Origin: Oceanicaulis sp. BBD 1991-10
Lineage (GTDB): Bacteria > Pseudomonadota > Alphaproteobacteria > Caulobacterales > Maricaulaceae
Direction: 5' to 3'
Length of the DNA stretch: 36,765 nt
Assembly (NCBI GenBank): GCA_001657295.1
Contig: LYSW01000026.1
Location: forward strand, 2,583 to 39,347
In this document: in pieces, positions 3,002 to 31,900 of the stretch
Layout: each line of letters begins with the position of its first letter
Position numbering within the stretch: position 1 is the stretch's first letter
The notes under the pieces: model-generated
Seen by the model: only the letters and a program-made list of their open reading frames with translations
Database searches by the model: none
What the model was told of the DNA's origin: nothing
Program-made: the position numbers and the translations under genes

Positions 3002-3499
3002 GTGGGCCGAAGGCTCCTCTACGGCATCCTATTGACCTTTGTGCTGGCGGTTCTCTGGCTGCTGCTTTCGGGCATGTGGTGGCACGCGATCATCACCAGC
3101 TTCGGCGTCTTTTCGGTGATCGCCTCGGTGTACATGACGATTCGATTTGGCGTTCTGGACGGCGAAGCCGCGCCCTTCGCCAATCTCGTGCGCTTCGGGC
3201 GTTATTGGATCTGGCTGGGCGGCGAAATCTTCAAGGCCAATATCGCCGTGGTGAAGCTGTCGCTGGCGCCGGACCTCAACATCAAGCCGGTTCTCACGCG
3301 TGTCGCCGTGGACGGGGGGTCGGACCTGGCGCGCACGACCTTCGCCAACTCCATCACGCTGACGCCGGGCACGGTGACGGTCGAGGTGGAGGAGAACGGC
3401 TTTCTCGTCCATGGCCTGGATGAGAGCTTCGCGGACCAGGAAGGCTTCCGCGATATCGGCCGCCGCGCTCTGAAGGCCGCTGACGGGGAGCCGAGCTGA
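3002..3499 (+). CDS. mnhE: Na+/H+ antiporter subunit E (MnhE/MrpE; MbhA-like)
   Basis: This is a small membrane subunit of the multisubunit Mrp-type monovalent cation/proton antiporter. It has 165 residues, with two or three N-terminal membrane helices in about residues 5-55 and a cytoplasmic C-terminal domain. The family signature NSITLTPGTVTVEVEENGF lies in the C-terminal half and is followed by VHGLDE. The start is the GTG at 3002: the overlapping ATG at 3000 runs into a stop after eleven codons, and AGGAGA sits six bases before the GTG. It is the first gene of a ten-gene operon and its stop overlaps the start of subunit F by one base. Placing E first is typical of the Mrp module of archaeal Mbh hydrogenases; classical bacterial mrp operons start with MrpA. 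Confidence 0.93.
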   Translation: MGRRLLYGILLTFVLAVLWLLLSGMWWHAIITSFGVFSVIASVYMTIRFGVLDGEAAPFANLVRFGRYWIWLGGEIFKANIAVVKLSLAPDLNIKPVLTRVAVDGGSDLARTTFANSITLTPGTVTVEVEENGFLVHGLDESFADQEGFRDIGRRALKAADGEPS

Positions 3500-3822
3500 T
3501 GTGGATGACATTCGTCGACTTCGCCGTCGCCGGCATGGTCGCCGGCGGCATGGCGCTGATCCTGGCGCGGCTATTTGTCGGTCCGACGCTGTATGACCGC
3601 GTCCTGGCGGTCAACGCCTTCGGCACGAAGACCGTCCTTTTCCTGGTCGTCTTCGCGATGATGGTCGGCGAGCCGGCCGCGATCGACATCGCGATCCTAT
3701 ATGCGCTGATCAACTTCATCGCCACGATCGCGATCCTGAAATTCTTCCGCTACCGCTCGCTGGAGGTCGCCTTGTCCCAGATGGCCTTGCGCCGGGCGCT
3801 GGACCGGGAGGATGAGGAATGA
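3499..3822 (+). CDS. mnhF: Na+/H+ antiporter subunit F (MnhF/MrpF; MbhB-like)
   Basis: A 107-residue integral membrane subunit with three predicted helices (about 4-24, 35-55, 60-80). The central stretch contains the family features LARLFVGPTLYDRVLAVNAF and a membrane-embedded aspartate in AAIDIAILYALINF. It is an accessory subunit needed to assemble the Mrp complex in the inner membrane. Its ATG overlaps the mnhE stop by one base (TGATG), and its own stop overlaps the mnhG start by four bases (ATGA), so translation is probably coupled. The charged C-terminal tail (LDREDEE) is cytoplasmic. Confidence 0.93.
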   Translation: MWMTFVDFAVAGMVAGGMALILARLFVGPTLYDRVLAVNAFGTKTVLFLVVFAMMVGEPAAIDIAILYALINFIATIAILKFFRYRSLEVALSQMALRRALDREDEE

Positions 3823-4178
3823 GCGTCGCTTTTCTGATCGAGATCGGCCTGGATATCGCGTCCGCCGTCCTGATGCTGACCGGCGCGGTCTTCGTGCTGG
3901 CCGGGGCCCTTGGCATGCTTCGGCTGCCGGATTTCTACACCCGCCTGCACGCCGCAGGCGTCACCGACACGCTAGGCGCGGAGATGATCATTCTCGGCCT
4001 GATGCTGCAGTCGGGCTGGTCGCTGGTGACGGTGAAGCTGGCGCTTCTGGGCCTGTTCATCTTCCTCACCAGCCCCACCGCGACCCATGCGACCGCCAAC
4101 GCGGCGTACAAGGCGGGCCTGAAGCCGCTGCTGACGCGCTTCCGCCCGCGCGCGCCGGAAGATCAGGGAGGCGCCTGA
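3819..4178 (+). CDS. mnhG: Na+/H+ antiporter subunit G (MnhG/MrpG; MbhC-like)
   Basis: A 119-residue membrane subunit of the Mrp-type antiporter with three helices. The family signature LGMLRLPDFYTRLHAAGVTD is complete at about residues 31-50, and the following GAEMIILGLML helix and SPTATHATANAAY region are also typical. The ATGA overlap with mnhF fixes the start at 3819. An AGGGAGG near its 3' end serves as ribosome-binding site for the next gene, one base downstream. E-F-G in this tight order is one conserved block of Mrp/Mbh clusters. Confidence 0.93.
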   Translation: MSVAFLIEIGLDIASAVLMLTGAVFVLAGALGMLRLPDFYTRLHAAGVTDTLGAEMIILGLMLQSGWSLVTVKLALLGLFIFLTSPTATHATANAAYKAGLKPLLTRFRPRAPEDQGGA

Positions 4179-4179
4179 C

Positions 4180-4731
4180 ATGGATGTCACCCAGTATTTC
4201 GACTATGCGCTGATGGCGATGCTTCTGGCGGTGGGCGTGGCGATCATCCGGCTGCGCAATCTGTTCGCGATCGTCATGCTGACGGGCGTTTATTCGCTGC
4301 TATCAGCCGCCTGGTTCACGTCGCTGGACGCCCTGGACGTGGGCTTCACCGAAGCGGCGGTCGGCGCGGGCATCTCAACAGTGCTGCTGCTGGCGGCGAT
4401 GCTGCTGACCTCGCGCGAATGCGACAAGGTCAGCTCGGCGCGCCACTGGGCGGCCCTGGCGGTATGCCTGGCCGCGGGGGCGGCGCTGTTCTACGCGCTG
4501 CCGGACATGCCGGTCTACGGCGCCGCCGACAGCCCGGCCAATTCCGGGGTCGGCATGGATTATATGATGCGCACCGGCGAAGAGCTGTTCATCCCCAACG
4601 TGGTCACCGCCATTCTGGGCTCTTACCGGGGCTTCGACACCATGGGCGAGGTTTTCGTGGTGTTCGCGGCCGGCGTGGGCGTGGCTTTGCTCATGGGCCT
4701 GTCCGGCCGCCGGCGTGAGGAGGACGAATAA
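4180..4731 (+). CDS. MbhD/MbhE-like antiporter subunit (detached MrpA C-terminal region; DUF4040)
   Basis: 183 residues with about five or six membrane helices. Residues about 5-80 match the DUF4040/MbhD domain (LRNLFAIVMLTGVYSLLSAA, then GFTEAAVGAGISTVLLLAAM). Residues about 95-175 match MbhE, with the diagnostic NVVTAILGSYRGFDTMGEVF. In a classical Mrp antiporter both pieces are the C-terminal end of the large MrpA chain. In archaeal Mbh hydrogenase they are separate proteins, MbhD and MbhE. Here they are one polypeptide detached from any NuoL-like domain. The gene follows mnhG by one base and overlaps mnhB by one base, with AGGAGG near its 3' end for the next start. It is often annotated simply as a subunit B or DUF4040 protein. 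Confidence 0.85.
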   Translation: MDVTQYFDYALMAMLLAVGVAIIRLRNLFAIVMLTGVYSLLSAAWFTSLDALDVGFTEAAVGAGISTVLLLAAMLLTSRECDKVSSARHWAALAVCLAAGAALFYALPDMPVYGAADSPANSGVGMDYMMRTGEELFIPNVVTAILGSYRGFDTMGEVFVVFAAGVGVALLMGLSGRRREEDE

Positions 4732-5174
4732 TGGGTCCCCATCTCATTCTGCGGGTCGTCGCCAAGCTGCTGATCCCGCTGATCCTGGTCTTCGGCTTCT
4801 ATGTGCATTTCCATGCCAAATACGCCCCTGGCGGCGCCTTCCAAGCCGGCGTGATCCTGGCCTCGGCGCTGATCTTGTATGCGCTGATCTACGGCATGGA
4901 CGCGGCGCGCAAGGCGGTGCCGCCCTGGACGGCGCGCGTCACCCTGGCGCTGGGCGCCTTCATCTTCGCCGCGGTGGGCTTCGTCTCGCTGATCTTCGGC
5001 GAGAATTATCTCGACTATGACGTGCTGCATCCGGACCTGGAGAAGGCGCGCGGGCAATATCTCGGCATCGTGCTGGTGGAGATCGGAGTGCTGATGACGG
5101 TCACCGCGGTGATCATCGCGATCTTCTACGCATTCGCCGGGCGAACCCCTGAAATCACCGAAGAGGAGTGGTGA
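4731..5174 (+). CDS. mnhB: Na+/H+ antiporter subunit B (MnhB/MrpB; MbhF-like)
   Basis: 147 residues with four membrane helices. The MnhB-domain core is HFHAKYAPGGAFQAGVILAS (about residues 26-45), followed by a membrane segment and GENYLDYDVLHPD. The acidic tail EITEEEW is cytoplasmic. The start ATG overlaps the previous TAA by one base and is preceded by a good AGGAGG. It is a structural membrane subunit of the Mrp complex, placed after the MbhD/E-like subunit exactly as MbhF follows MbhE. Confidence 0.92.
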   Translation: MGPHLILRVVAKLLIPLILVFGFYVHFHAKYAPGGAFQAGVILASALILYALIYGMDAARKAVPPWTARVTLALGAFIFAAVGFVSLIFGENYLDYDVLHPDLEKARGQYLGIVLVEIGVLMTVTAVIIAIFYAFAGRTPEITEEEW

Positions 5175-5176
5175 GC

Positions 5177-5581
5177 ATGATTGAAATGCTCTCCGAACGC
5201 TTCACCTACGCGGTCATCATCATTTTGATGATGGTCGGTCTTTATGCGCTGATCGCGACCGGCAATCTGGTCAAGCGCATGGTGGGGCTGGCGATCTTCC
5301 AGACCTCGGTCTTCCTGCTCTACATCACGGTGGGCAAGGTGTTCGGCGGCAAGCCGCCCATCCTGGATTATTACGAGATCAATTACGGCGAGCTGGATCC
5401 CACCCAGCTCTACTCCAATCCGCTGCCGCAAGTGCTGATCCTCACCGCGATCGTCGTGGGCGTGGCGACGCTGGCCATGGGTCTGGCGCTGGTGGTGCGG
5501 ATCCGGGAAGCCTACGGAACGATCGAGGACGACACGATCTCCGAGGCGGATTATTCGCTCGAGCTTGAAAAGGGCGTGTAA
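5177..5581 (+). CDS. mnhC: Na+/H+ antiporter subunit C (MnhC/MrpC; MbhG/NuoK-like)
   Basis: A three-helix subunit of about 134 residues homologous to NuoK of complex I. Typical motifs are GNLVKRMVGLAIFQTSVFLL and, near the end of the membrane part, NPLPQVLILTAIVVGVATLA. I start at ATG 5177, nine bases after AGAGGAG. GTG codons at 5168 and 5171 are in frame, and the latter would overlap the mnhB stop, so the exact N-terminus is uncertain by up to three residues. The longer loop between helices two and three (KPPILDYYEINYGELDPTQL) is also seen in the Mbh/Mrp-group proteins. Three bases separate it from mnhD. Confidence 0.9.
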   Translation: MIEMLSERFTYAVIIILMMVGLYALIATGNLVKRMVGLAIFQTSVFLLYITVGKVFGGKPPILDYYEINYGELDPTQLYSNPLPQVLILTAIVVGVATLAMGLALVVRIREAYGTIEDDTISEADYSLELEKGV

Positions 5582-5584
5582 CCG

Positions 5585-7120
5585 GTGACGGACGGCATTC
5601 TTCTTCCCGCGGCGCTCGCCGCGCATGCGCCCGCGCTTCTGGTCGCGGTCCCGCTGATCCTGTCCACGGTCGCCGCCGCGATTCCCAGCGGCCGGACCGC
5701 CTGGGCTTTGGCGGTGATCAGCGCAGCGGTCGCTTTGGTTTGCGCGATCGAGCTCTTCTTCGCGACGCGCGCCGACCACGCCGTCGTCAGCTACGCCATG
5801 GGCGGCTGGGAGCCGCCCTTCGGCATTGAATTCCGCATTGACGGGCTGAACGCGGCGATCCTTCTCCTGTTGTCCTCAACCGGGCTGTTGGCGCTGCTTT
5901 TCGCCTTGCCCAGCGTGGCCGACGAGATCGCCGGCAATAAGCAATCGCTGTTCTATTCGGCCTTCCTTCTGGCCTTTTCCGGCCTGTCCGGCGTGGCGAT
6001 CACGGGCGATGCGTTCAACCTGTTCGTCTTCCTGGAGATCAGCTCGATCGGCACCTATGCGATCATCGCCATGGGCTGGAAGAATGACCGCCGCGCCCTG
6101 ACGGCCAGCTTCAATTATCTGGTCATGGGCACGATCGGCGCGACCTTCTTCGTGATCGGGATCGGCTTTCTTTATATGGCCACCGGCACGCTGAACATGG
6201 CTGACATGGCCCAGCGCATCGCCGAACTGCCCGGCGACCGGGTCGTGGAGGTCGGCTTCGCCTTCATCCTGGTCGGCATCGGTTTGAAATCGGCGCTCTT
6301 CCCGCTGCATCTCTGGCTGCCCAACGCCTATGCCTTCGCGCCCAATTTCGTGACCACCTTCCTGGCGGCCACCGCGACGAAAGTCGCCTTCTACGTGATC
6401 ATCCGCTTTTCCTTCGACGTCTTCTCGATCGAGAGCGCCTATGTGGTGAACGCGCTGACCTATGTGGTCACGCCGCTGGCGATCGCGGGCATGCTGGTGG
6501 GCTCGGCCCAGGCCTTGTTCCAGGCGGATGCACGCCGGCTTTTCGCCTACTCGTCGGTCGCCCAGGTCGGCTATATGCTTCTGGGTCTGGGCATGGCGAC
6601 GGCGCTGGGCGTCGCGGCGGGCACGCTGCATCTGCTCAATCACGCCATCATGAAGGGTGCGCTATTCATGGCGCTGGGCGCGTTCGCCTATAGCTATGGC
6701 GTGCGCCGGATCGATGACTTGAAGGGTCTGGGCCAGGCCATGCCGTTCACCGCCGCGGCCTTCACCATCGGCGCCTTGTCGCTGATCGGCGTGCCGTTCA
6801 CCGCCGGCTTCATCTCGAAATTCTACCTGGTTCAGGCGGCGCTGGACAAAGACTGGTGGTGGGCGGTGGCGGCGATCCTGATCGCGTCCGTGCTGGCGGT
6901 GTTTTACTGCTATCGCATGCTGGTCGCCCTGTGGGTCAACCCGGCGCCGACGGCGGACCGGGCGCTTAACGGCCATGTGCGCCGCGTGCCCTGGATGATC
7001 GTCATCCCGCTCTGGATCCTGGCCGCCGCAAACCTGTATTTCGGCACGAACGCCGGCTTCATGGTCGATATGGCGCAAACCGCCGCCCAGGCGGCGATCA
7101 ACGGAGGCGTGGGCTCATGA
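5585..7120 (+). CDS. mnhD: Na+/H+ antiporter subunit D, first copy (MnhD/MrpD; MbhH/NuoN-like)
   Basis: 511 residues with about 14 membrane helices and the proton-conducting transporter domain shared with NuoL/M/N. The key charged residues of a proton channel are present: Glu151 in FVFLEISSIGTYAI (helix 5), Lys235 in GIGLKSALFPLHLWLPNAY (helix 7) and Lys266 in ATATKVAFY (helix 8). The GTG start at 5585 lies three bases after mnhC, with a purine-rich AAAGGG upstream. It overlaps the next gene by four bases (ATGA). It is the first of three antiporter-like subunits in the operon and the one whose position equals MbhH. Confidence 0.92.
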   Translation: MTDGILLPAALAAHAPALLVAVPLILSTVAAAIPSGRTAWALAVISAAVALVCAIELFFATRADHAVVSYAMGGWEPPFGIEFRIDGLNAAILLLLSSTGLLALLFALPSVADEIAGNKQSLFYSAFLLAFSGLSGVAITGDAFNLFVFLEISSIGTYAIIAMGWKNDRRALTASFNYLVMGTIGATFFVIGIGFLYMATGTLNMADMAQRIAELPGDRVVEVGFAFILVGIGLKSALFPLHLWLPNAYAFAPNFVTTFLAATATKVAFYVIIRFSFDVFSIESAYVVNALTYVVTPLAIAGMLVGSAQALFQADARRLFAYSSVAQVGYMLLGLGMATALGVAAGTLHLLNHAIMKGALFMALGAFAYSYGVRRIDDLKGLGQAMPFTAAAFTIGALSLIGVPFTAGFISKFYLVQAALDKDWWWAVAAILIASVLAVFYCYRMLVALWVNPAPTADRALNGHVRRVPWMIVIPLWILAAANLYFGTNAGFMVDMAQTAAQAAINGGVGS

Positions 7121-8589
7121 GCTGGACGCCTGAACTTGCGCTCGCCCTGGCTTTGATCCTGCCGCTTCTCGGCGGGGTCGGAGTCCTGATCTTCGACAAG
7201 CAGCCCAATCTGCGCGAAGCGGCAACGCTGATCAGCGCCGTCGCGCTCGCCGTGGTGGTCGCCTATCTGGTCGAAACCTCCGGTCAGCGCCCGGAGATCA
7301 CCCTGATCGAGTTCGCGCCCGGCTTGACGCTCAGCTTCAAGCTGGAGCCCTTAGGCGCGGTCTTCGCCATGGTGGCGAGCGGTCTGTGGATCGTGAACTC
7401 GCTGTATTCCATCGCCTATATGCGCGGGAATAAGGAGAAGAATCAGACCCGCTTCTATGTCTGCTTCACCCTGTCCATCGCGGCGGCCATGGGCATCGCC
7501 CTGTCGGGCAATCTGCTCACGCTGTTCTTCTTCTATGAAGCGCTGACGCTGGCGACCGTGCCGCTGGTCGCGCACAAGGGCGACGCCAAGGCCAAGAAGG
7601 GCACGGCGATCTATCTGGGCATTCTTCTGGCCACCTCGATCGGCCTTTTGCTGCCGGCGATCTTCGCCACCTACGCCTTAACCGGCACGACCGATTTCAC
7701 CGCGGGCGGCATTCTCACCGGCGCCGCCGGTCCGGTGGCGGGCTCGATCCTGCTGGTGCTGTTCGCCTTCGGCATCGGCAAGGCGGCGCTCATGCCGGTT
7801 CATCCCTGGCTGCCCAACGCCATGGTCGCGCCCACCCCGGTCTCCGCGCTGCTGCACGCCGTCGCGGTCGTGAAGGCGGGCGTGTTCACCATGCTCAAAG
7901 TGGTGATCTACATCTTCGGCCCGGAATATATGCAGACCCTGCCGGCGGCGGACGTCCTGGCCTGGATCGCGGGTCTGTCGATCGTGATCGCCTCGGTGAT
8001 CGCCTTCACCAAGGACAATATCAAGGCCCGGCTCGCCTTCTCCACGGTCAGCCAGCTGTCCTACGTGACGCTGGGCGCCATGCTGGCGAGCCCGGCGGCG
8101 CTTCTGGGCGGGGCCTTGCAGATCGTCATGCACGCCTACGGCAAAATCACGCTCTTCATGACGGCGGGCGGCATTTATACCGGCGCCAAGAAGACCGAGG
8201 TGAGCCAGCTCGACGGGCTGGGCTGGCACATGCCGGTCACCTTCGCGGCCTTCGCCATCGGCGCCTTGTCGATCATCGGCGTGCCGCCCTTTGGCGGGGT
8301 GTGGCCGAAAATCTTCCTGATGGAAGGCTCCGCCGCGGCGGGTCAGCCCTGGCTGATCGCCATGCTGATCGGTTCGACGCTGTTGAATATCGGCTATCTC
8401 CTGCCCATCGTGATCCGCGGCTTCTTAAAGCCGAAACCGAAGGATAACCCGATGAAGCCGGGCCTGCCGCCGCCGCTGGCCTTCGTCGCGCCGGCGATCA
8501 CGGCGGCCGGCGCCGTGGTATTATTCTTCTTCGTCGGGCCGCTGATCGATTTTCTTCAGCCTGTCTTCACCACGGAGATGACGCCATGA
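7117..8589 (+). CDS. Mrp-type antiporter subunit, second NuoL/MrpD-family copy
   Basis: 490 residues of the proton-conducting membrane transporter family. Glu141 (FFFYEALTLATVPLVA), Lys222 (GIGKAALMPVHPWLPNAM) and a histidine-lysine pair, His247 and Lys253 (SALLHAVAVVKAGVF), are conserved. The PTPVSALLHA stretch is closer to NuoL/MrpA-type chains than to the first copy, which reads FAPNFVTTFLAATATK there. This protein may therefore supply the MrpA-like channel that this operon otherwise lacks. GGAGG lies nine bases before the ATG, and the start overlaps the previous stop (ATGA). The protein ends after a last membrane helix and carries no DUF4040/MbhD tail. Assignment to D or A type needs a tree. 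Confidence 0.88.
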   Translation: MSWTPELALALALILPLLGGVGVLIFDKQPNLREAATLISAVALAVVVAYLVETSGQRPEITLIEFAPGLTLSFKLEPLGAVFAMVASGLWIVNSLYSIAYMRGNKEKNQTRFYVCFTLSIAAAMGIALSGNLLTLFFFYEALTLATVPLVAHKGDAKAKKGTAIYLGILLATSIGLLLPAIFATYALTGTTDFTAGGILTGAAGPVAGSILLVLFAFGIGKAALMPVHPWLPNAMVAPTPVSALLHAVAVVKAGVFTMLKVVIYIFGPEYMQTLPAADVLAWIAGLSIVIASVIAFTKDNIKARLAFSTVSQLSYVTLGAMLASPAALLGGALQIVMHAYGKITLFMTAGGIYTGAKKTEVSQLDGLGWHMPVTFAAFAIGALSIIGVPPFGGVWPKIFLMEGSAAAGQPWLIAMLIGSTLLNIGYLLPIVIRGFLKPKPKDNPMKPGLPPPLAFVAPAITAAGAVVLFFFVGPLIDFLQPVFTTEMTP

Positions 8590-8921
8590 GCGCGCCGCGC
8601 CCCGGCGCGCCGGACGGGATACACCCGCTGGCGCAGCCCTTCCTCTTCGTCTTCAAGCCAGGCTTCGCGCGCCTTTTCGTGCTCGCGCTGGCCGTGCTCC
8701 TGCTGGTCAGCTTCGGCGTCGAATTCGCGATGACCGGCGGTGAGGGGCTGTCGAAATACCCCGAGGTCCTCGGCGGTTATGAAGTCCTGCCTGCCCTGGC
8801 CGCCGCCGCGGCGATCATCGCCGCCTGGCTTGTGCGCTGGGTGTTGGGGGTCGCGCCCGACTTTTACGAGCGCGAAGCGGGTGATCTGACCAAGACTGAA
8901 TCGGAGTCCGCCGATGGCTGA
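8586..8921 (+). CDS. small two-helix membrane protein inside the antiporter operon, function unknown
   Basis: A 111-residue protein with two predicted membrane helices (about 29-47 and 69-87). It has a proline-rich N-terminus and a charged C-terminal tail (YEREAGDLTKTESESADG). I do not recognise a named family. Its ATG overlaps the preceding antiporter gene by four bases and it overlaps the following one by eight bases, so it is certainly cotranscribed and probably translationally coupled. It is sandwiched between two NuoL-like subunits, so it is likely to be an extra complex subunit or assembly factor; that role is inferred from position only. Confidence 0.8.
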   Translation: MSAPRPGAPDGIHPLAQPFLFVFKPGFARLFVLALAVLLLVSFGVEFAMTGGEGLSKYPEVLGGYEVLPALAAAAAIIAAWLVRWVLGVAPDFYEREAGDLTKTESESADG

Positions 8922-10656
8922 CGCCTTTTCCTTCCTCGCCGGAGTCTCGCCGGCCTGGCCGCTCATTCTCGGCGGCCTGATCGCACTGGCGTTGCCCACC
9001 CATGCCGGGCGCAAGGCGGTGATGATCCTGGCGCCGGTCATCGGTCTGGCCGCCTGGTTCGCCACGCGGGAGCCCGGCGTCTACGGGGTGATCGAGCTGG
9101 GTCCGGTCGTCTTGGAGACCTTCCGCTTCGACTCCTTGAGCCGCGTTTGGGCGTTGGTCTTTTTGATCGCCGCCTTCATCAACGGCATCTACTCCATCCA
9201 TGACCGCTCACGCTGGTCGGACGCCGCTTCGCTGATTTATGCCGGTTCGGCCGTCGGCGCGGTGTTCGCGGGCGATTTGCTGACCCTCTTCTTTTTCTGG
9301 GAATTGACCGCCATCGCGTCCGCGCCGCTGATCTTCGCGGCCGGGGGACCGGTCGCGCGCCGCGCCGGCCTTCGCTATCTGGCGATCCAGGTGCTGTCCG
9401 GCGTCCTGCTTCTGGGCGGCGCCGCGCTTTGGGCGGGCGAGACCGGCAGCTGGAGCTTTGGCGGCCTTAACGCCGTCTCCGTCTTCGACCTGTCCGGACC
9501 GGCCGGCTGGATCATCCTTCTGGGCTTCGGCGTCAAGGCGGCCTTCCCGTTGATGCATATGTGGCTGCCGGACGCCTATCCCAAAGCCACCGGCTTCGGC
9601 GCCGTGGTGCTCTCCGCATTCACGACCAAGATGGCGATCTACGCGCTGGCGCGCGGATTTGCGGGTGAGGAGATCCTGATCACGCTGGGCCTGATCATGG
9701 CGGTCTTCCCGGTCTTCTTCGCGATCGTCACCAACGACTTGCGTCAGACGCTGGCCTACGCCCTGATCAACCAGCTGGGCTTCATGACCGTGGCCGTCGG
9801 CGTCGGCTCGGAGCTCGCGCTCAACGGCGCTGCGGCGAACGCCTTCGTCGGCGTGATTTACATGGCGCTTTTCTTCATGGTGATGGGCGCGGTGCTCGCA
9901 AGAACGGGAACGGTGAAGGCCACCGAGCTGGGCGGGCTGTTCAAGTCCATGCCCGCGACCGGACTGTTCGCCGTCATCGCCGGCGCGGCCGTGGTCGGCG
10001 TGCCGCTGTTTTCCGGCTTTGTCGCCAAGACCTTGATCCTGTCGGCGGTGCATTACGAGCATCTCACGCTCGCCTACATCATTCTGATCTTCGCTTCGGC
10101 CGGCGTTATGGAGCAGACGGCGCTGAAGGTGCCGTATTTCGCTTTCTTCGGCGAAGACCGGGGGCACCGGGTCAGCGAGGCGCCGGCAGGGCAGTTGATC
10201 GCCATGGGCATCGCCGCCTTCCTCTGCCTTCTGATCGGAACGCAGTATGAGGCGCTCTACGGCCTTCTGCCCTTCGCGATCGATTATCAGCCGTATGCAG
10301 CCGCCTCCGTGGTGGGTCAGCTGCAGATCCTGGGCGCCGGCGCGCTGGCGTTCTCCGCTCTGATCTGGCTGAAGCTCTATCCGCTCAAGTCCGATCGCAC
10401 GATCCTGGATGCGGACTGGCTCTATCGCTATGTGGGTGACGCGATCGCGCGCTGGGGCACGGCCATGGGCCGCATCCTCACCGGCTGGAGCGAGCAGGTG
10501 CTGGGCCAGAATTTCAAGAGTCTTGGCCGCAAGCTGTTCAATCTCTTCAGCCCGGCGGGCACGTTGTCGCGCGATTTCCCGTCCGGCTTGATGGCGCTTT
10601 GGACCGCGATCCTGCTGGCCGGCGTTCTGGTGGTCGCCTATTTCTCCACAGCCTGA
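8914..10656 (+). CDS. Mrp-type antiporter subunit, third NuoL/MrpD-family copy with long C-terminus
   Basis: 580 residues with about 14-16 membrane helices. The proton-pump residues Glu130 (FFFWELTAIASAPLIF), Lys208 (GFGVKAAFPLMHMWLPDAY) and Lys239 (SAFTTKMAIYALARGF) are all kept. A distinctive C-terminal extension runs from about residue 470: a helix (LAFSALIWLKLYPLKSD), an amphipathic cytoplasmic-side stretch (DADWLYRYVGDAIARWG and following) and a final membrane helix. Such an extension recalls the lateral helix of NuoL and of MrpD-type proteins in larger complexes, but the comparison is inferred. GGAG lies seven bases before the ATG. It is the last gene of the operon and a hairpin follows its stop. 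Confidence 0.88.
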   Translation: MADAFSFLAGVSPAWPLILGGLIALALPTHAGRKAVMILAPVIGLAAWFATREPGVYGVIELGPVVLETFRFDSLSRVWALVFLIAAFINGIYSIHDRSRWSDAASLIYAGSAVGAVFAGDLLTLFFFWELTAIASAPLIFAAGGPVARRAGLRYLAIQVLSGVLLLGGAALWAGETGSWSFGGLNAVSVFDLSGPAGWIILLGFGVKAAFPLMHMWLPDAYPKATGFGAVVLSAFTTKMAIYALARGFAGEEILITLGLIMAVFPVFFAIVTNDLRQTLAYALINQLGFMTVAVGVGSELALNGAAANAFVGVIYMALFFMVMGAVLARTGTVKATELGGLFKSMPATGLFAVIAGAAVVGVPLFSGFVAKTLILSAVHYEHLTLAYIILIFASAGVMEQTALKVPYFAFFGEDRGHRVSEAPAGQLIAMGIAAFLCLLIGTQYEALYGLLPFAIDYQPYAAASVVGQLQILGAGALAFSALIWLKLYPLKSDRTILDADWLYRYVGDAIARWGTAMGRILTGWSEQVLGQNFKSLGRKLFNLFSPAGTLSRDFPSGLMALWTAILLAGVLVVAYFSTA

Positions 10657-10658
10657 GC

Positions 10659-10677
10659 TTCTCCACCTGTGGGAGAA
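10659..10677 (+). terminator. hairpin just after the antiporter operon
   Basis: TTCTCCAC (10659-10666) and GTGGGAGAA (10669-10677) pair to form an eight-base stem with one bulged G and a 2-base loop, starting three bases after the last stop codon. There is no T-run, so it is a stabilising or weak terminator hairpin rather than a classical intrinsic terminator. Confidence 0.3.
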
Positions 10678-10711
10678 TATACGCTAGCGTTGCAATCTTA
10701 TGCGCGATTGA

Positions 10712-10747
10712 TAGGAAAGTTATCCTCATAATCGTGTTATCTTCCTA
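10712..10747 (+). promoter_or_regulatory. repeat cluster with a DnaA-box-like site upstream of the HdaB-like gene
   Basis: Within an AT-richer gap, TAGGAA (10712-10717) and TTCCTA (10742-10747) form an inverted repeat. Inside it are two direct GTTATC repeats (10719-10724 and 10736-10741). The first is part of TTATCCTCA (10720-10728), which differs from the DnaA box TTATCCACA at one base. The cluster ends about 40 bases before the start of a gene for a DnaA-domain-IV protein, so control by DnaA or self-control is possible. Confidence 0.3.
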
Positions 10748-10787
10748 GAATGTCGTCTCATCATTGAACGGCTCCAGGGAGATTGCC

Positions 10788-11129
10788 ATGACCGACCGAA
10801 ATCACAGCGCCGACCGCGCCCGGGCGCAGTTGGCGCTCCAGACCGTCGCCTACGCCTTCGGCGTGCCGGCGGACCAGATCGACTCCCCCACCCGTGGAAC
10901 ATCCCGCGCCGCCTTGGCGCGCCAGACGGCGATCTATCTCACCCACGTGGCGTTCGAGCTGAGCCTGGCCCGCACGGCGGCGGCGTTCGGGCGGGATCGG
11001 TCGACGGCGGCCTATGCCTGCCACCGGATCGAAGACCGGCGCGACGACGCCGCGTTCGACGCCAAGCTTGAAGATCTTGAAGCCTGCTTGCGTGCGGCGC
11101 CGTCGCCCAGCGCGCCGGCGGCGGCATGA
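10788..11129 (+). CDS. stand-alone DnaA domain IV-like helix-turn-helix protein (HdaB-like)
   Basis: A 113-residue protein that consists almost entirely of a Bac_DnaA_C-like domain. Residues about 42-85 carry ARQTAIYLTHVAFELSLART and FGRDRSTAAYACHRIEDRRD. They follow the DnaA domain IV signature (GRDHSTV..AC..I) that reads DnaA boxes. Domains I-III of DnaA, including the AAA+ ATPase, are absent. In Caulobacter, HdaB is a DnaA-domain-IV-like protein that acts with Hda in regulatory inactivation of DnaA, and this gene is a plausible ortholog. The assignment rests on domain architecture only. The start at ATG 10788 has AGGGAG seven bases upstream. The stop overlaps the next ATG (ATGA), coupling it to a DUF6456 protein. 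A DnaA-box-like site lies upstream. Confidence 0.82.
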   Translation: MTDRNHSADRARAQLALQTVAYAFGVPADQIDSPTRGTSRAALARQTAIYLTHVAFELSLARTAAAFGRDRSTAAYACHRIEDRRDDAAFDAKLEDLEACLRAAPSPSAPAAA

Positions 11130-11881
11130 GCGTTGCGGCCTGGATGCGGCGGCTGAACCGGTCCGGACGCCTGCTCGCCCCCTTGCCGGGCGGCCGGTCC
11201 GGATATGGCGTCTTCGCCGGCGCTGACCGTCGACGCCGGCCGATCGCCAAAGCGGCTGACGCAGAAGTTCGAGCCGCGCTCAGCGACGGCGCGCTCATCG
11301 AAACCGGCCGCGGGATTGTCCTGAGCGAAGAGGGCCGCAAACGGCTGCACCGCGCGGCGAGCGCCGGGGACCAACCCTTCGCCGCTCAGCATCAGCAGCC
11401 CGCCCGGCGCATCGTCATCGATGCGGACGGCGAGCGCAGCGTTTCAGCGAGCGCCGCGCCAGGGCCGCTCGCGCGCTATCTAAGGCCGTCCGGAGGGCGG
11501 CCGGCCCTGCTTGACGCCGTGCACGCGAGCGCGGCCGCGATATTCGTGCGCGATTATGAGCGCTCGGCCCTGTCGAGCCGCGTGACGGCGGACTGGAGCG
11601 CGGCGCCGGGCGGCAAGCGGCGCTCGGCGCCGACGGACCGGGCGGACATCCCGGCGACTCGTCTAGACGCCCAAAATCGGGTGCTCGCCGCCCTTGAAGA
11701 GGCGGGCCCCGGCTTTGATCGGTTGCTGTTCGCGATCCTGATCCGGGAGGTTGGCGTCGGCGCCGCGGAGCGCGAACTCGATTGGCCCGAGCGCGCCGGC
11801 GCGGCGATGTTGAAGATCGCCTTGGATCGCCTGGCTGTGCATTACCGGCTCAAGCCGCGGCCGAAAGCCTTCACCGGCTAG
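11126..11881 (+). CDS. DUF6456 domain protein
   Basis: 251 residues. The N-terminal 80 residues look like a winged-helix-type region (VRAALSDGALIETGRGIVLS), the middle is low-complexity, and the conserved C-terminal DUF6456 region spans about 185-245. It includes RLDAQNRVLAALEEAGPGFD and the continuation FAILIREVGVGAAERELDWP, ending in ALDRLAVHYRL. This C-terminal part resembles a helical DNA-binding domain of the phage-repressor kind. The four-base overlap with the DnaA-domain-IV gene suggests the two work together, perhaps in replication control; this is inferred. Its TAG is shared with the convergent sufE stop in a CTAG. Confidence 0.78.
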   Translation: MSVAAWMRRLNRSGRLLAPLPGGRSGYGVFAGADRRRRPIAKAADAEVRAALSDGALIETGRGIVLSEEGRKRLHRAASAGDQPFAAQHQQPARRIVIDADGERSVSASAAPGPLARYLRPSGGRPALLDAVHASAAAIFVRDYERSALSSRVTADWSAAPGGKRRSAPTDRADIPATRLDAQNRVLAALEEAGPGFDRLLFAILIREVGVGAAERELDWPERAGAAMLKIALDRLAVHYRLKPRPKAFTG

Positions 11882-12309
11882 GCGGCCAGTGATTCCGCCT
11901 CGGCGCGGATTCGCTTGATCATGCTGGCCAGGCCGTTGGAGCGCTGGGGCGATAAATGCTCGGCCAGGCCGATCCGGCCGAGTACGGCCTTGGGGTCGAT
12001 CGACAACGCCTCCGCGGGCGTCCGGCCCGTGTAGAGCCGGTCCATCAAGGCGACGAGACCTTTGACGATGTGGGCGTCGCTGTCGCCGCGCAGGTTCAGA
12101 CGGCCGTCCTGGTTGTCGACGACGACCCAGACCTGGCTGACGCAGCCTTTGACCTTGCGGTCTTCCGTACGCTCGGCGTCGGGAAAGGCCGGCAAAGCCT
12201 GGCCCAGCTCGATGAGGTAGCGATAGCGCTCCTCCCAGTCGCCGAGAAACTCGAACTCGTCGACCAATTCATCAATATCGGTTTGAAGATCGCCCATGGG
12301 CGGCGACAT
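11878..12309 (-). CDS. sufE: SufE family protein (cysteine desulfuration accessory)
   Basis: A 143-residue cytoplasmic sulfur acceptor for the SUF iron-sulfur cluster pathway. It takes persulfide sulfur from the desulfurase SufS. The active cysteine is Cys56 in RKVKGCVSQVWV, and the family pattern FEFLGDWEERYRYLIELGQ precedes it at about residues 19-37. LVALMDRLYTGRTPAEAL and IGLAEHLSPQRSNGLASM in the C-terminal half are also typical. I take the ATG at 12309; the in-frame ATG at 12297 is four codons later and equally possible, because neither has a clear ribosome-binding site. No other suf gene is nearby. The stop overlaps the stop of the convergent DUF6456 gene. Confidence 0.92.
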   Translation of the reverse strand: MSPPMGDLQTDIDELVDEFEFLGDWEERYRYLIELGQALPAFPDAERTEDRKVKGCVSQVWVVVDNQDGRLNLRGDSDAHIVKGLVALMDRLYTGRTPAEALSIDPKAVLGRIGLAEHLSPQRSNGLASMIKRIRAEAESLAA

Positions 12310-12362
12310 AAGACGGACCGCCGCAGCCTTCAAGCCCGGCGGTCTGTGACGCTCTGCGGCGC

Positions 12363-12710
12363 CTAGCGGGCCGGCTGGTCGCTGACCGCTTCGGCGAAAA
12401 GCTGGTCGATGGCCTCGGTCTCCGCGGCGTCGGCATGGCGTTCGGCGATCGCGTTGGCGCGGTCGGCGGCGAGCGACACCATGAAGCCGGCGATGTCGGC
12501 GGCCTCGCCCACCAACGCACAGGCCTGCTCGCGACCGGCGCACACATCGTTCGCGGCCGCCTGGAGGTCGCCGCTCGCCTCTCTGGCGTTGAACTGACCG
12601 GCGATGACGGCGGCTTCCTGTGCAAACGCGCCGTCGACCGGCGCGCTGAAGCCTGCGGGGACGAAGGCTGCGACCACGAGGGTCCAGAAAACCGCTTTGA
12701 CTGGAAACAT
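12363..12710 (-). CDS. small exported protein of unknown function
   Basis: 115 residues beginning with a clear Sec signal peptide (MFPVKAVFWTLVVAAFVPAG, cleavage probably after GAFA near residue 30). The mature part is helical and alanine-rich, with two cysteines eight residues apart (VCAGREQACALVG) that may form a disulfide in the periplasm. I do not recognise the family. The start at 12710 has GAGG about eight bases upstream; an upstream in-frame ATG at 12791 would bury the signal peptide. It lies 53 bases upstream of sufE on the same strand and may be cotranscribed with it. Confidence 0.7.
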   Translation of the reverse strand: MFPVKAVFWTLVVAAFVPAGFSAPVDGAFAQEAAVIAGQFNAREASGDLQAAANDVCAGREQACALVGEAADIAGFMVSLAADRANAIAERHADAAETEAIDQLFAEAVSDQPAR

Positions 12711-22307: not shown

Positions 22308-23519
22308 ATGGAGACATTCCGCACCGAGCTGTCCGAATTGTGGGCCATCGTCGTCGACGTCTGGCAGACCAGCTTCTTCGGCTTCCCGGTCGGCGACGGC
22401 CTGGCGGCGGTGGGGATTTTCCTGTTCGCGCTTTTGGTGCGCGGCGTCTTCTCCAAGCTGCTGCTGCGCCGGCTCTTGGCGCAGGCGGAGAAGACCGAGA
22501 CAGAACTGGACGACGCGCTGCTTAAGGCGCTCGCCGGGCCGGTGAAGATGATCCCGGTGATCATCGGCGCCTATTTCGCCCTCTATTTCCTGGGTTTGAC
22601 CGGCGAAGAAGCGCCGGTTGACGGCACGCGCGTCATCGAGACTTTGGTGATCATCACCATTTTCTGGGCGCTGTTTAATGCGGTGGAGCCGGTCGCGAGG
22701 CTCTCGGCGCCGCTGCGGCGAGCGCTGAACCCGGTGATGATCGACTGGATGGCCAAAGCGCTGCGCATCCTGTTTCTGATCATCGGCGGCGCGGCGGTTC
22801 TGGAAGCGTGGGGCATTCCGGTCGCGCCGATCATCGGCGGCCTGGGTCTGCTGGGCGTCGCGGTCGGCCTGGGCGCGCAGGACCTGTTCCGCAATCTCAT
22901 CGCCGGCATTTTGATCCTGACCGAAAAGCGCTTCGTGCCGGGCGAATGGGTCAAGGTGGACGGCGTGGTCGAAGGCACGGTCGAGCAGATCAATTTCCGC
23001 TCCACCCTGGTGCGGCGCTTTGATAAGGGCCCGGTCTTCGTGCCGAATTCGAAGCTGGCGGATAACGCGGTGACGAATTTCTCGCGCATGACGCATCGGC
23101 GCATCCGCTGGATGATTGGAGTGGAATACAGCGCGACGACCGACCAGCTGAAATATATCCGCGACGGCGTGCTGGATTATGTCCTTAACCATCCTGAGTT
23201 CGCTAAACCGCCGGAGGTGTCGACCTTCATGCGGGTGGACAGTTTCAACGCCAGCTCGATCGATTTTTTCCTCTACTGCTTCACCCGCACCACCAATTGG
23301 GGCGAGTGGCTGCGGATCAAGGAAGAATTGGCGTTCGAGATCAAGCGCATCGTTAAAGAGGCCGGGACCGATTTCGCCTATCCGTCCACCACGGTCTATC
23401 TGGCTGACGGCGCGGAGAAATTCATCCCGCCGGACGTGCGCGAGCATTCCACCGACCCGGCCCTGGAGGCCCGCCAGGATCGCGCCATCGCCCGCGGCGA
23501 AAGCGGGGAGGGCGAGTAG
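22308..23519 (+). CDS. MscS-family small-conductance mechanosensitive channel
   Basis: 403 residues. Four or five N-terminal membrane helices precede the pore helix TM3, which reads GGLGLLGVAVGLGAQDLFRN at about residues 178-197. The MscS beta domain follows with GILILTEKRFVPGEWVKVDG and VPNSKLADNAVTNFSR, then a C-terminal alpha/beta vestibule. The channel opens under membrane tension to release solutes on osmotic downshock. The loop between TM helices and the acidic C-terminal tail (ARGESGEGE) are not conserved features. AGGAG lies 11 bases before the ATG. It shares a transcript with prfC. Confidence 0.94.
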   Translation: METFRTELSELWAIVVDVWQTSFFGFPVGDGLAAVGIFLFALLVRGVFSKLLLRRLLAQAEKTETELDDALLKALAGPVKMIPVIIGAYFALYFLGLTGEEAPVDGTRVIETLVIITIFWALFNAVEPVARLSAPLRRALNPVMIDWMAKALRILFLIIGGAAVLEAWGIPVAPIIGGLGLLGVAVGLGAQDLFRNLIAGILILTEKRFVPGEWVKVDGVVEGTVEQINFRSTLVRRFDKGPVFVPNSKLADNAVTNFSRMTHRRIRWMIGVEYSATTDQLKYIRDGVLDYVLNHPEFAKPPEVSTFMRVDSFNASSIDFFLYCFTRTTNWGEWLRIKEELAFEIKRIVKEAGTDFAYPSTTVYLADGAEKFIPPDVREHSTDPALEARQDRAIARGESGEGE

Positions 23520-23703: not shown

Positions 23704-25275
23704 ATGGCGACGTCGCAGTCGGAGGAAAGCCCTAGACCGGGTCCCGAATGGGACGCCATCATCATCGGCTCCGGCATGGGCGGGATGGCCGCCGGCTCCG
23801 CGCTGGCTCAGGTCGGCCACAAGGTGCTCCTGCTTGAGCGACACCAGACCCTGGGCGGTCTGACGCACAGCTTCACGCGCAACGGCTTCACCTGGGATGT
23901 CGGCGTTCATTATCTCAGCTCCATGGCGCCGGGCGACCGGATGCGCGACCTGCTCGATTTCATCTGCGATACGCCGATGGAGTTCGCGTCCCTGGGCTCG
24001 GTCTACGACACCCTTCATATCGGACAGGAGCCGCCGCTATCGCTCTCGCGCCCTTATGAAGCCTATGAGCGCGACCTGAAGGACCGATTTCCCGATCAGG
24101 CCGAGGCCGTTACGGCCTGGACCCAGGCCCTGCGCGAGGGCCGGGCGGCGATGTACAAGGTCTTCCCGACCCGCGCGATGCCGGCGATCGCCGGCGATGT
24201 GATGGACTGGCTCAACCGGCGGACCCTCGAAAAATACTGCGCGCGCACCACGCAGGAGGTGATCGACGAACTGACCGATGATCCCGTGCTGGCGGCGGCG
24301 ATGGCGGCTCAATGGGGCGATCATGGCGGTCGGCCCAGCAAGGCCAGCTTCGCCATGCACGCCACGATCGCGGCGAGTTATCTGATCTCCGGCTCCTGGT
24401 ATCCGGTCGGCGGCGCCGGCGCCTATGCCGCGCATATCCTGCCCTCGATCACCAGGAATGGCGGCGAAGCGCGCGGCGGGGCCGGCGTAGACGCCATCCT
24501 TCTCGAAGACGGGCGCGCGGTCGGGGTGCGGACCAGCGACGGCGAGGAGATTCGGGCGAAGGTCGTGATCTCCGATATCGGCGCGCGGGAGACGATCGAT
24601 ACGCTTCTGCCCTCTGAGGCCGGCCATGAGACCTGGCGCGACGAGATCCGCGCGTTGCCCTCCAGCATCGCCCATTTCAACATCTTCCTCGGCTTTGAGG
24701 GCGATATCGAAGCCGCCGGCGCCACGACGGCGAACCACTGGATCTTTCCGAGCGGTCAGGCCGACGTCGTCTGGACCAATGCGCCCGATGAAGCGCCGCC
24801 CCAAATGACCGTCGCCTTCGGATCGCTGAAGAATCCGGCCCATGACCCCGGCCCGACGCGCAAGCATACCGGTCAGATCATCGTCTGGGCGGACTGGTCC
24901 ACGGTCGCGAAATGGGCTGATCTGCCGCCCGGCGATCGCGGTGACGCGTATGCGGACTTCAAGCGCCGCGCCGAAGACACGCTGATGGCGATGTTTGAGC
25001 GACACTTCCCCGAACTCGCCAAGCTTGTCGTGTATCGCGAGCTCGCCACGCCTTTGTCCACGGTCTCCTTCACCGGACACCGGCAAGGCGCCTTCTATGG
25101 ACTGGACGTGACCCCGGCGCGGGTGATGAGCGACGCGCTTCGGGCGCAGACGCCGGTTCCCGGTCTCTTTCTCACGGGTCAGGACGTGGTGTGCCCCGGC
25201 ATTCCCGGCGCGCTGATGGGCGGGCTGCTGTCGGCGGCCAGCGTTGATCGCAAAGTCTTCATGCATATGCGGTGA
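23704..25275 (+). CDS. FAD-dependent oxidoreductase, retinol saturase/phytoene desaturase (CrtI)-like
   Basis: 523 residues. A Rossmann FAD-binding motif GSGMGGMAAGSALAQVGHKV lies near residue 23, followed by LLERHQTLGGLTHSF and WDVGVHYL, as in the CrtI/retinol saturase group. The C-terminal FAD signature is LFLTGQDVVCPGIPGALMGG, close to that of all-trans-retinol 13,14-reductase-like proteins. It probably reduces or desaturates a carotenoid-like or other polyene lipid. No other carotenoid gene is nearby, so the substrate is open. GGGAGA precedes the ATG at 23704. It is convergent with a TetR regulator, a usual arrangement for lipid-responsive control, but the two do not share a promoter. Confidence 0.87.
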   Translation: MATSQSEESPRPGPEWDAIIIGSGMGGMAAGSALAQVGHKVLLLERHQTLGGLTHSFTRNGFTWDVGVHYLSSMAPGDRMRDLLDFICDTPMEFASLGSVYDTLHIGQEPPLSLSRPYEAYERDLKDRFPDQAEAVTAWTQALREGRAAMYKVFPTRAMPAIAGDVMDWLNRRTLEKYCARTTQEVIDELTDDPVLAAAMAAQWGDHGGRPSKASFAMHATIAASYLISGSWYPVGGAGAYAAHILPSITRNGGEARGGAGVDAILLEDGRAVGVRTSDGEEIRAKVVISDIGARETIDTLLPSEAGHETWRDEIRALPSSIAHFNIFLGFEGDIEAAGATTANHWIFPSGQADVVWTNAPDEAPPQMTVAFGSLKNPAHDPGPTRKHTGQIIVWADWSTVAKWADLPPGDRGDAYADFKRRAEDTLMAMFERHFPELAKLVVYRELATPLSTVSFTGHRQGAFYGLDVTPARVMSDALRAQTPVPGLFLTGQDVVCPGIPGALMGGLLSAASVDRKVFMHMR

Positions 25276-28948: not shown

Positions 28949-31900
28949 ATGAAACGGGCGGTTTTGGGGGCCTTGGGCGCCCTGGCGATGGCGGCGGCGG
29001 CCTCGGGTCAGGAGGCGGAACACTGGCTGCGCCAGCCTGCGGTTTCGCCGGACGGGCGGAGCATCATCTTTACGGCCTGGGGCGATTTATGGCGCGTGGA
29101 CGCGGCGGGCGGCACGGCCATTCCGCTCACCGTCGACGACGCCTGGGACGGTCATCCCGTCTGGTCGCGCGACGGGTCACAGATCGCCTTCGCCTCGGAC
29201 CGATTCGGCGATCTCGACGTTTTCGTCATGGCGGCGGACGGATCGGATCTGCGCCGGCTGACCTACCATTCCGCCAGCGATTATCCGTCCGACTTCACGC
29301 CCGACGGCGCGGCCGTGCTGTTCTCTTCGGCGCGCGGGGATTCGGCCAGCTCCAGCTATTTTCCCACCGGCGCCTTGCCGGAGCTCTATCAGATCGGCGT
29401 CGACGGCGGGGCGCCGCGGATGGTGATGACCAATCCGGCGGTCGAGGCGCGCTTCAGTCCGGACGGGACGCGCATCGCCTATCGCGAGGAAAAGGCGTAC
29501 GAAAACGATCTGCGCCAGCGCGACGTCTCCAGCTTTGCGCGCGATATCTGGATTTATGACATCGCCAGCGGCGCCCACGAGCAGGTGACCGACAACGCCG
29601 GGGGGGACCACGCCCCGGCCTGGGACGGTGACGACGCGCTGTTCCTGTTGTCCGAAGTCGACGGCGACAGCTTCAACGCCTGGCGGCTCAACCTCGCCGA
29701 CGGCGAGCGCGAGCGCCTGTCCAGCCACACGCCTCACGCCGCCCGCGAGCTGAGCGCCAGCGCCGACGGCCTTCTGGCCTATTCCTATCATGGCGATCTT
29801 TACACGGTGCGCCGCGGCGAAGAGCCCGTGCGCGTGGACGTGACATTCCCCGCCAGCCTGTTGCGCAATGCGCCGACGCCCTTCCCGGTCGCCGGCCGGG
29901 TCAGTGAATTTGCGATCTCGCCGGACGGCCAGGAGATCGCCTTCATCGCGCGCGGCGAGGTTTTCGTCACCGCGGTGGATTTCTCCGCCACTGTGCGCAT
30001 CACCGACACGCCCGAACAGGAGCGCTCGGTCAGTTTTGCGCCCGACGGGCGGTCGCTGATCTATGCCGGCAATCGCGGCGGCGCCTGGACGCTTTTTGAA
30101 ACCACGCTGGAGGACGCCAGCGAGCCGCGCTTTTCCGCCGCCACCCAGTGGCGCGAGCGCGAGGTGTTCCGGCCGGAAGCCGGCGGTGAAGCCTTCCAGC
30201 CGCTGTATTCCCCGGATGGAGCCAGCATCGCCTTTGTCGAAAATCGCGACCTGATCAGCGTGATCGACGCCGACGGCGCCAATAAGCGCACGATCTTCAC
30301 CGCCGAGCAGAACTACTCCTACGCCGACGGCGATATCAGCTTCGACTGGTCGCCGGATTCAAATTGGATCACAGCCACCTACATCACCGGCAGCCTGTTC
30401 TACACCGATATCGGGGTCGCACCGGCGGACGGGTCGGCGGCCGCACGCAATATCTCCATCACCGGCTATGGCGATAACGGCCCGATCTGGCACCCCTCAG
30501 GCGATGTCATCTACTGGTTTTCCGACCGCTACGGCGAGCGCACCCATGGCAGCTGGGGCTCCGAGTTCGACGTTGTCGCGGCGTTTCTGACCCAGCCGGG
30601 CTGGGACCGCTTCAACCTGACCGAACAGGAGCGCGCCCTGCTTGAAGAGATGGGCGAGCAAGAGCCTGAAGAGGGCGAAGAGCGTCCCTCCGGCGGCCTT
30701 CTGGATTTCTTCAACTGGGTCGACGACATGATGGAGGAGGGCGAAGAGGAAAGCCCGCAACAGCTGGATTTCGACGCCGCCGAAGACCGCTTCACGCGCC
30801 TGACGATCCATTCTTCCCGCTTGAGCGACGCCGTGTGGAGCGAGGATTTGTCCAAACTCTACTATTTGGCGGCGTTTGAGGGCGGGTTCGACCTGTGGGT
30901 CCACGATCTGCACGAGCGCGAAACCCGGCGGCTCGCGGCGCTGAACGCGCGCGGCGGCGTGGATATCGAATTGATCGATGACAGCAGCGCCGTCATTCTC
31001 GCCAACGGTTCGCTTCGCAAGATCAATCTGTCGAACGGATCGCCGGAAGGCATTGCGATCTCAGGGGAGATGACCCTGCGCGCCGATGCGGAACGGGGCT
31101 ATTTCTTCGACCATGTCTGGCGCCAGGTGGCGGACAAATTCTACGATCCAGACTTCCACGGCGTCGACTGGGACGCCATGCGCGCCGCCTATGAGCCGAA
31201 GGTCGCCGCGGTCTCCAACAATCGCGATTTCGCCACCTTGATGTCCGAACTCCTCGGCCAGCTCAACGCCAGCCATACCGGCATGTATTATAATCCGCGC
31301 CCTGAAGGCACGGATGACAGCACCGCCGCGCTGGGCGCGATCTTTGATCTGACATCCGACGCCTCGGGCTTGGTGATCGCTGAAGTCCTGCCCGGCGGCC
31401 CGCTGGACCGCGACGGTTTGGACGTCGAGCCGGGCTCCCGCATCACGGCGATCTCCGGCGTCGCGCTGGATGGAGCGGTCAATCCGTTCTCGCTGCTCAA
31501 CCGGGTCGCGGGCGACCGGATCCGCATCACCCTGGCCGCCCCGGACGGCGGGCGGGAAGAGGATGTGATCATCCGCACCTATTCGCGCGGCGCGGAGAAC
31601 CAGGCGCTCTATGAGCGGTGGATCGACCGTCGCCGCGCCATCGTCGATGAGGCGTCCGACGGCCGGATCGGCTATGTGCATATCCGCTCCATGTCCGATA
31701 GCGGCTATCGCCAGATCTATGGCGAGCTGATGGGGCGCAATTTTCACAAGGAGGCCGTGGTCGTGGACACCCGCTTTAACGGCGGCGGCTGGCTTCATGA
31801 CGAGCTTCTGGTGCTGCTCACCGGCGAGTCGTATTTCAATCTGCGCGTCCGCGGCCGCATCATTTCCGGCGCGCCGGAAGAGCGCTGGACCAAGCCCAGC

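Follow-up and report, generated by a model that had tools for sequence, protein, structure and literature searches.

A stand-alone Mrp-type operon without mrpA and with three antiporter chains in Oceanicaulis sp. BBD 1991-10

The window analyzed here, a stretch of 36,765 nucleotides of contig LYSW01000026.1 from Oceanicaulis sp. BBD 1991-10 (assembly GCA_001657295.1), carries at positions 3002-10656 an operon of ten genes on one strand in the order E-F-G-DE-B-C-D1-D2-X-D3 (table 1), all of whose open reading frames (ORFs) were confirmed. Adjacent ORFs share 1 to 8 bases or are separated by gaps of 1 to 3 bases. Pfam names nine of the ten products, with Proton_antipo_M (PF00361) present three times, and X matches no family. 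The E-values of the named subunits span 1.7e-13 to 7.4e-68 and are beyond chance, except for the MbhE half of DE (2.7e-5), whose domain (PF20501) scores 24.6 bits, slightly below the cut-off of 27. An earlier note on this DNA had described an Mbh-like order of E, F, G, MbhD/E, B, C and D followed by two further chains and a small protein, which the ORFs and Pfam confirm, and the correspondence it drew between Pyrococcus MbhA-H and the Mrp subunits agrees with the table in the available part of Haja et al. (2021).

Table 1. Genes of the operon and altered residues of D3, in window coordinates (aa, amino acids; TM, transmembrane helix)
Feature	Position	Strand	Remarks
MrpE / MnhE (MbhA-like)	3002..3499	+	165 aa, GTG start; PF01899 (MNHE), E 5.1e-27
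MrpF / MnhF (MbhB-like)	3499..3822	+	107 aa, Asn39; PF04066 (MrpF_PhaF), E 1.5e-16
MrpG / MnhG (MbhC-like)	3819..4178	+	119 aa; PF03334 (PhaG_MnhG_YufB), E 5.2e-27
DE, fused MbhD/MbhE	4180..4731	+	183 aa; Glu58, Asp153, Glu157; PF13244 (MbhD), E 1.7e-13
MrpB / MnhB (MbhF-like)	4731..5174	+	147 aa; PF04039 (MnhB), E 1.6e-29
MrpC / MnhC (MbhG, NuoK-like)	5168..5581	+	137 aa; PF00420 (Oxidored_q2), E 2.6e-21
D1, MrpD-like antiporter chain	5585..7120	+	511 aa; PF00361, E 7.4e-68
D2, antiporter chain	7117..8589	+	490 aa; PF00361, E 9.2e-51
X, 111-aa protein between D2 and D3	8586..8921	+	two predicted long helices
D3, antiporter chain	8914..10656	+	580 aa; NF009310, 581.8 bits (cut-off 564)
D3 TM11 residues 309, 313, 317 = Asn, Gly, Met	9838..9864	+	alignment

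Classical Mrp systems of groups 1 and 2 have a long MrpA in which the N- and C-terminal parts are joined, whereas DE is here a separate 183-aa gene. DE can be aligned to residues 604-764 of 7d3u_A and also to MbsD, MbsE and MbhE, and by alignment it is the counterpart of the C-terminal part of MrpA. The absence of MrpA claimed in the earlier note held when the whole genome was searched: MrpA was found with neither PF00361 nor MbhD in this assembly (98.95% complete, 89 contigs, a gene located in a gap being possible). The genome has six PF00361 genes, three in the operon and three on two other contigs, the latter grouping with NuoL, NuoM, and NuoN in the tree, and its sole MbhD domain lies in the operon; an MrpA elsewhere in the genome was rejected on these grounds. 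Haja et al. (PMC8415708) define group 3 Mrp, in the passages available, as having no mrpA and one or more copies of mrpD. This is the composition found here, and judged by its genes the operon belongs to this known class, as a stand-alone member. Ito et al. (2017) differ on group 3 in the part available, describing every subunit as present and the order as irregular. According to the available part of a review, a cyanobacterial group 3 Mrp cluster that contains two mrpD genes mediates Na+ exchange in E. coli.

On tree evidence, D1, D2, and D3 are three separate old clades. A tree of 90 rows unites the D1 rows (support 99), the D2 rows (91), and, when joined by the rows of green complex I, the D3 rows (100, including one long row of L032); recent duplication of the three NuoL-type chains, which would have spoken against the earlier note, was therefore rejected. 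The best Protein Data Bank (PDB) matches of D1 are MbsH, MbhH, and MrpD, and those of D2 are NuoL/NdhF chains. D3 is sister to the archaeal MbsH' (95; 94 in a smaller tree), and D2 groups with the D2 of green complex I (97, including one long L032 row), both then joining the D2-like chain from a second type of operon described below (99). As described in the passages available of PMC9040806, NuoL is replaced in green complex I by two MrpD-like chains, the second with a lateral helix. On S. meliloti pSymA its genes run nuoJ-K-D2-X-D3-M-N-A-B-C-D-E-F-G, with no nuoL in the stretch seen. Identity to the pSymA counterparts is 46% for D2 and 45% for D3, and by tree and sequence D2 is the orthologue of the first, and D3 of the second, MrpD-like chain in the rhizobial green complex I.

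The same layout is common, both among relatives and in more distant bacteria. Counted together with chains of green complex I, as in all genome counts given here, the D3 family was found above cut-off in 48 of 61 genomes (BBD 1991-10 and relatives), namely in all 15 of the window's genus, in 21 of the 22 other genomes of its taxonomic family (in the remaining one, G027, there is instead an 806-aa frame clustering with MrpA), and, in further taxonomic families, in 6/6 genomes of each of two and 0/6 of each of two others. At E <= 1e-100 it was present in 97 of 385 genomes of a class sample and 21 of 398 of a phylum sample; one genome of the phylum sample (G508) carries three D3-family genes above cut-off on three contigs. 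Among 14 loci chosen from the class list, 12 were of the Mrp type (one cut, with only D1-D3 visible) and two were nuo operons (G412 and G240). The green complex I chains of these two receive the top scores with NF009310, entitled "Na(+)/H(+) antiporter subunit D", which lumps two complexes.

Gene order was held in 13 of the 18 opened loci of relatives (one cut by a contig end), the other five being other operon types. A scan of genome contigs confirmed at least 584 relatives, 80 of which were used for gene-order counts by a crude ORF scan: E-F-G-DE-B-C-D1-D2-(X)-D3 was exact in 53, six more were the same without a match to B, and the remaining 21 either were cut by contig ends or differed, the differences being tentatively attributed to the starts called for overlapping frames. 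By their titles, contigs among these 80 belong to Alpha-, Beta-, and Gammaproteobacteria, to Planctomycetota (such as Rhodopirellula), to Nitrospira, and to Desulfocapsaceae. Locus L046 is without D1 and D2, and L090, titled Ca. Sulfopaludibacter, may be mis-binned, its three chains nesting with the alphaproteobacterial L021, and was not counted for its phylum. A second Mrp-type operon with three antiporter chains was seen at L034 (G008, 6292-12602) and L035 (G005, 5901-12105); its middle chain is a relative of D2 (44-46% identity), the third chain of L034 has Ala for Glu-TM5, and weak MrpF matches like those of this operon type also occur in G013 and G028.

Protein X was picked between D2 and D3 in 119 loci by a heuristic, four of the picks not being believable, and its site is the same in most relatives. 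Individual scans of 42 X homologues gave just isolated stray matches. The model of X is of modest confidence, with a mean predicted local distance difference test score (pLDDT) of 73.7. A His in the loop between its two helices is found in 83 of 96 rows outside the genus (13 being without it) versus 1 of 14 genus rows, a partial signal; the count omits L066, L084, L087, and L096, which have no believable X frame, and five loci taken for repeats or partial.

We propose, with a probability of about 0.7, that the ten genes encode a single group 3 Mrp complex of the stand-alone kind, a cation/proton exchanger driven by the proton motive force; its proton arm would comprise three chains, the last of them modified in the genus. 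The exchange is the most likely function given the class to which the operon belongs. The proposal builds on gene content, order, conservation, orthology, and residues; the assembly, direction, ion, and stoichiometry that follow are conditional on homology. MrpE, MrpF, MrpG, and MrpB would constitute the cation module and DE together with MrpC the coupling site, and D1, D2, and D3 would stand in a row as a complex I-like proton arm, along which the C-terminal helix of D3 may run back, with X placed near the D2-D3 joint. Protons would enter through the arm down the proton motive force and drive a cation out via the DE/F/C side, and this exchange would serve pH and ion homeostasis.

The points that weigh against this proposal lie in the cation path, in the deep ancestry and modeling of the antiporter chains, and in the D3 of the genus. 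MrpF has Asn39 opposite the Asp35 of the solved chains, in 50/50 outside rows and 13/13 genus rows, where outside rows are loci, some genomes appearing twice, and counts are restricted to rows aligned over 70% of the protein (stated for MrpF and limited likewise for the others). Asp occupies position 35 in all four solved MrpF-type chains, and PMC7419157, in the passages available, calls it invariably conserved and important for activity. The Bacillus-type motif Ser36-His37-x-x-His40 of MrpC corresponds in the window to Gln45-Thr46-x-x-Phe49, and among 82 outside rows position 46 is Thr in 68, Val in 9, and Ala in 5, and position 49 is Phe in 63, Tyr in 11, Ile in 5, and Cys in 3. The operon of the window is in consequence without both classical marks, MrpF Asp35 and MrpC His37/His40. 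A noisy motif scan found the MrpF Asp kept in the group 2 type operons of G038 and G058 and replaced by Gln in the second operon type (L035 and L192).

Other residues of the path are kept. Invariant in the rows counted are MrpF Asp33 and Asp63; DE Glu58, Asp153, and Glu157; MrpG His44; and MrpE Pro122 and His137, and the available passages of PMC7419157 give roles for residues equivalent to those of the operon's cation path. Our guess is that MrpE Pro122 and His137 and MrpG His44 are the P114e, H131e, and H42g of that paper on A. flavithermus. DE Glu58 was equated through MbhD E69 with MrpA E706, an assignment by sequence that is tempered by a direct alignment to Dietzia MrpA having Gln opposite. 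MrpC His88 is kept in 79/82 outside and 12/14 genus rows and is Gln in the window (5429-5431) and in L125. At the MrpC His pair archaeal MBS carries Thr and Asn, and in MBH the two residues are Ser and His; both keep the MrpF Asp. As neither has the full pair, the MrpC change by itself is not peculiar to this family, and Na+ pumping is still compatible with it. The cation-site residues are nevertheless unusual throughout the family, and the transported ion is therefore not safely Na+.

The earlier note held that MrpA is split, of which the C-terminal part stands in DE, whereas none of D1, D2, and D3 could be shown to be the N-terminal part. If D2 or D3 were the N-terminal half, the operon would be a rearranged classical Mrp with an extra MrpD, which we consider improbable. 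Among the three chains only D2 has the TM8 His of MrpA/NuoL (113 of 114 rows), and its PDB matches point the same way. D3, the only chain of the three whose C-terminal helices were modeled, has MrpA/NuoL-like helices beyond the bundle (501-545 and 557-578) and its best solved fold in Foldseek is MrpA (7qru_A, TMq 0.79), the helices being modeled at pLDDT 43-70 by block of ten and the match having a root-mean-square deviation of 12.2. Approximately unbiased (AU) tests do not reject D3 with NuoL/MrpA (p 0.119), D2 with NuoL/MrpA (0.25), or D2 with D3 (0.193), so that more than one deep position of D2 and D3 is compatible with the data. The free tree, however, clusters NuoL, MrpA, and HyfD (99) without D2 or D3, and an acidic residue after Lys-TM12 is absent from all three chains in the rows compared. 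The MrpA features are divided between two chains, and no single chain combines the TM8 His, the acidic residue, and the lateral helix of an MrpA/NuoL-type chain.

All three chains of the window have the residues expected of antiporter chains, Glu-TM5, Lys-TM7, Lys-TM8, and Lys-TM12, which are also kept across the Mrp rows of the family (one D3 row being unreadable at Glu130); the channel residues are E151, K235, K266, H353, K357, and K412 in D1 and E141, K222, H247, K253, H339, K343, and K398 in D2. The case for three channels made in the earlier note is weakened in the genus, where the TM11 set of D3 has been lost. Outside it D3 has His309 in 92, His or Asp at 313 in 97, and Lys317 in 101 of 104 rows, and the picture is the same after collapsing at 97% identity (98 of the 104 rows left); in 15/15 genus rows the set is Asn-Gly-Met. 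D1 and D2 retain the TM11 His and Lys both within and beyond the genus, apart from a single exception at D1 H353. Where 85% or more of the outside rows agree, changes fixed in the genus number nine in D3, three in D2, one in X, and none in the other seven subunits. In the S. meliloti green complex I, the D3 chain (L147, 11926-13686) has, in our alignment, Asn where other chains have Lys-TM7.

PMC7419157 places H369 and K377 of A. flavithermus MrpA, in the passages available, in a cluster between Lys-TM8 and Lys-TM12, and we take these to be the equivalents of the D3 TM11 residues via alignment to Dietzia MrpA. Because the His-His/Asp-Lys set is lost, the share of D3 in proton transfer in the window's genus is probably altered or reduced. 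A dead channel does not follow, since E. coli NuoM and NuoN, which align with Q-H-A and Y-Y-S at the same three places, are also without the TM11 Lys; a group 2 MrpD row (L031) likewise lacks it. That D3 is decaying and nonfunctional in the genus is doubtful and not favored. In addition to the lost residues, mean identity within the genus is 0.768 for D1, 0.838 for D2, and 0.727 for D3, against 0.660, 0.714, and 0.710 in six other genomes of the family, so that D3 is relatively faster in the genus (means compared without a significance test). Yet D3 is present in all 15 genomes, its Glu-TM5, Lys-TM7, Lys-TM8, and Lys-TM12 are retained in 15/15 rows, Asn-Gly-Met is identical in every genus row though pairwise identity falls to 64%, and its ratio of nonsynonymous to synonymous substitution rates (0.30) is near that of D1 (0.28).

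The earlier note also saw no redox partner, and none is present among the ten genes of the operon, nor was a hydrogenase or Nuo-type subunit found in 10 other window ORFs scanned (three without a family; the scan was not exhaustive). These other ORFs include an MscS-type channel (22308-23516), a flavin amine-oxidase-like protein (23704-25272), and a tricorn-like S41 protease (28949-32215); a small protein with a DnaA C-terminal domain (10764-11126) lies directly downstream of the operon. The genome has two PF01058 genes, both on other contigs beside other genes: one encodes a 188-aa protein taken to be NuoB, and the other encodes the small subunit of a [NiFe] hydrogenase of the uptake type, which has a b-type cytochrome of its own (small and large subunits and cytochrome at L198, contig C43, 4078-7752). 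A membrane arm of an Mbh/Mbs-like redox pump with its soluble part encoded elsewhere in the genome is thus very improbable, for although the order is MbhA-H-like, MbsH is the top-scoring PDB match of D1, MbsH' is the sister of D3, and the same D2-X-D3 cassette functions within a complex I operon, the two PF01058 genes are accounted for as presumed NuoB and uptake hydrogenase and the flanks of nine other loci (10 ORFs scanned) hold nothing recurrent.

Read as a stand-alone group 3 Mrp, the operon resembles several known systems in part. One is the group 3 cluster of 'Ca. Nitrospira alkalitolerans' (PMC7784846), which is likewise stand-alone; in it mrpD precedes two further genes resembling NuoM and NuoL, which its authors regard as mrpA- or mrpD-like. 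The passages available speak of seven genes, mrpA-G, and do not analyze the residues or X, and our sequence-level Nitrospira comparison concerns another contig (L110). The stand-alone mrpEFGBB'CD of Pyrococcus furiosus (PMC8415708) shares the order E-F-G-[MbhD/E fusion]-B-C-D without MrpA and without a redox module, but has one antiporter chain versus three here and, in the text available, no mention of X. Archaeal MBS (6u8y) and MBH (6cfw) have the same subunit set and order, with D1 near MbsH/MbhH by score, but they join the membrane module to redox subunits, of which the operon has none, and have one or two antiporter chains versus three. Classical Mrp (7qru, 6z16, 7d3u) has homologous E, F, G, B, C, and D, and DE aligns to the C-terminal part of its MrpA; it differs in its long MrpA, in the MrpC His pair (seen in the two group 1 chains, 7qru and 6z16), and in MrpF Asp35, the pair and the Asp both being changed here. 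The rhizobial green complex I has the D2-X-D3 cassette in common with the operon, but there it replaces NuoL in a full nuo operon and here it ends an mrp operon.

The earlier note's suggestion of an unusual stoichiometry was overstated, as group 3 Mrp is a named class, the layout is common, and a D-D-D example is in print, in the part of the source available. We found no published account, in open-access literature available partly as partial texts, of the cation-site signature, the shared X, or the D3 change of the genus, nor, in the open-access literature, of the D2-X-D3 tie between group 3 Mrp and green complex I. As far as these searches go, all four are new.

PMC7419157 leaves open, in the passages available, whether in Mrp and complex I every antiporter chain moves a proton of its own or the chains of the arm share protons. 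A more far-reaching possibility, which we regard as rather unlikely, is that the operons form a large bacterial Mrp-like family in which an arm of complex I length and a rebuilt cation site serve another ion or another H+/ion ratio, D3 and X having become a non-conducting or gating cap in this genus of the Maricaulaceae, a natural change of stoichiometry. Irrespective of this possibility, the family offers a redox-free three-chain complex, two of whose chains are orthologous to those of a four-chain complex I, and the genus a natural lineage in which one chain is missing part of the proton wire. The relation of chain number to stoichiometry would thereby become testable without electron transfer.

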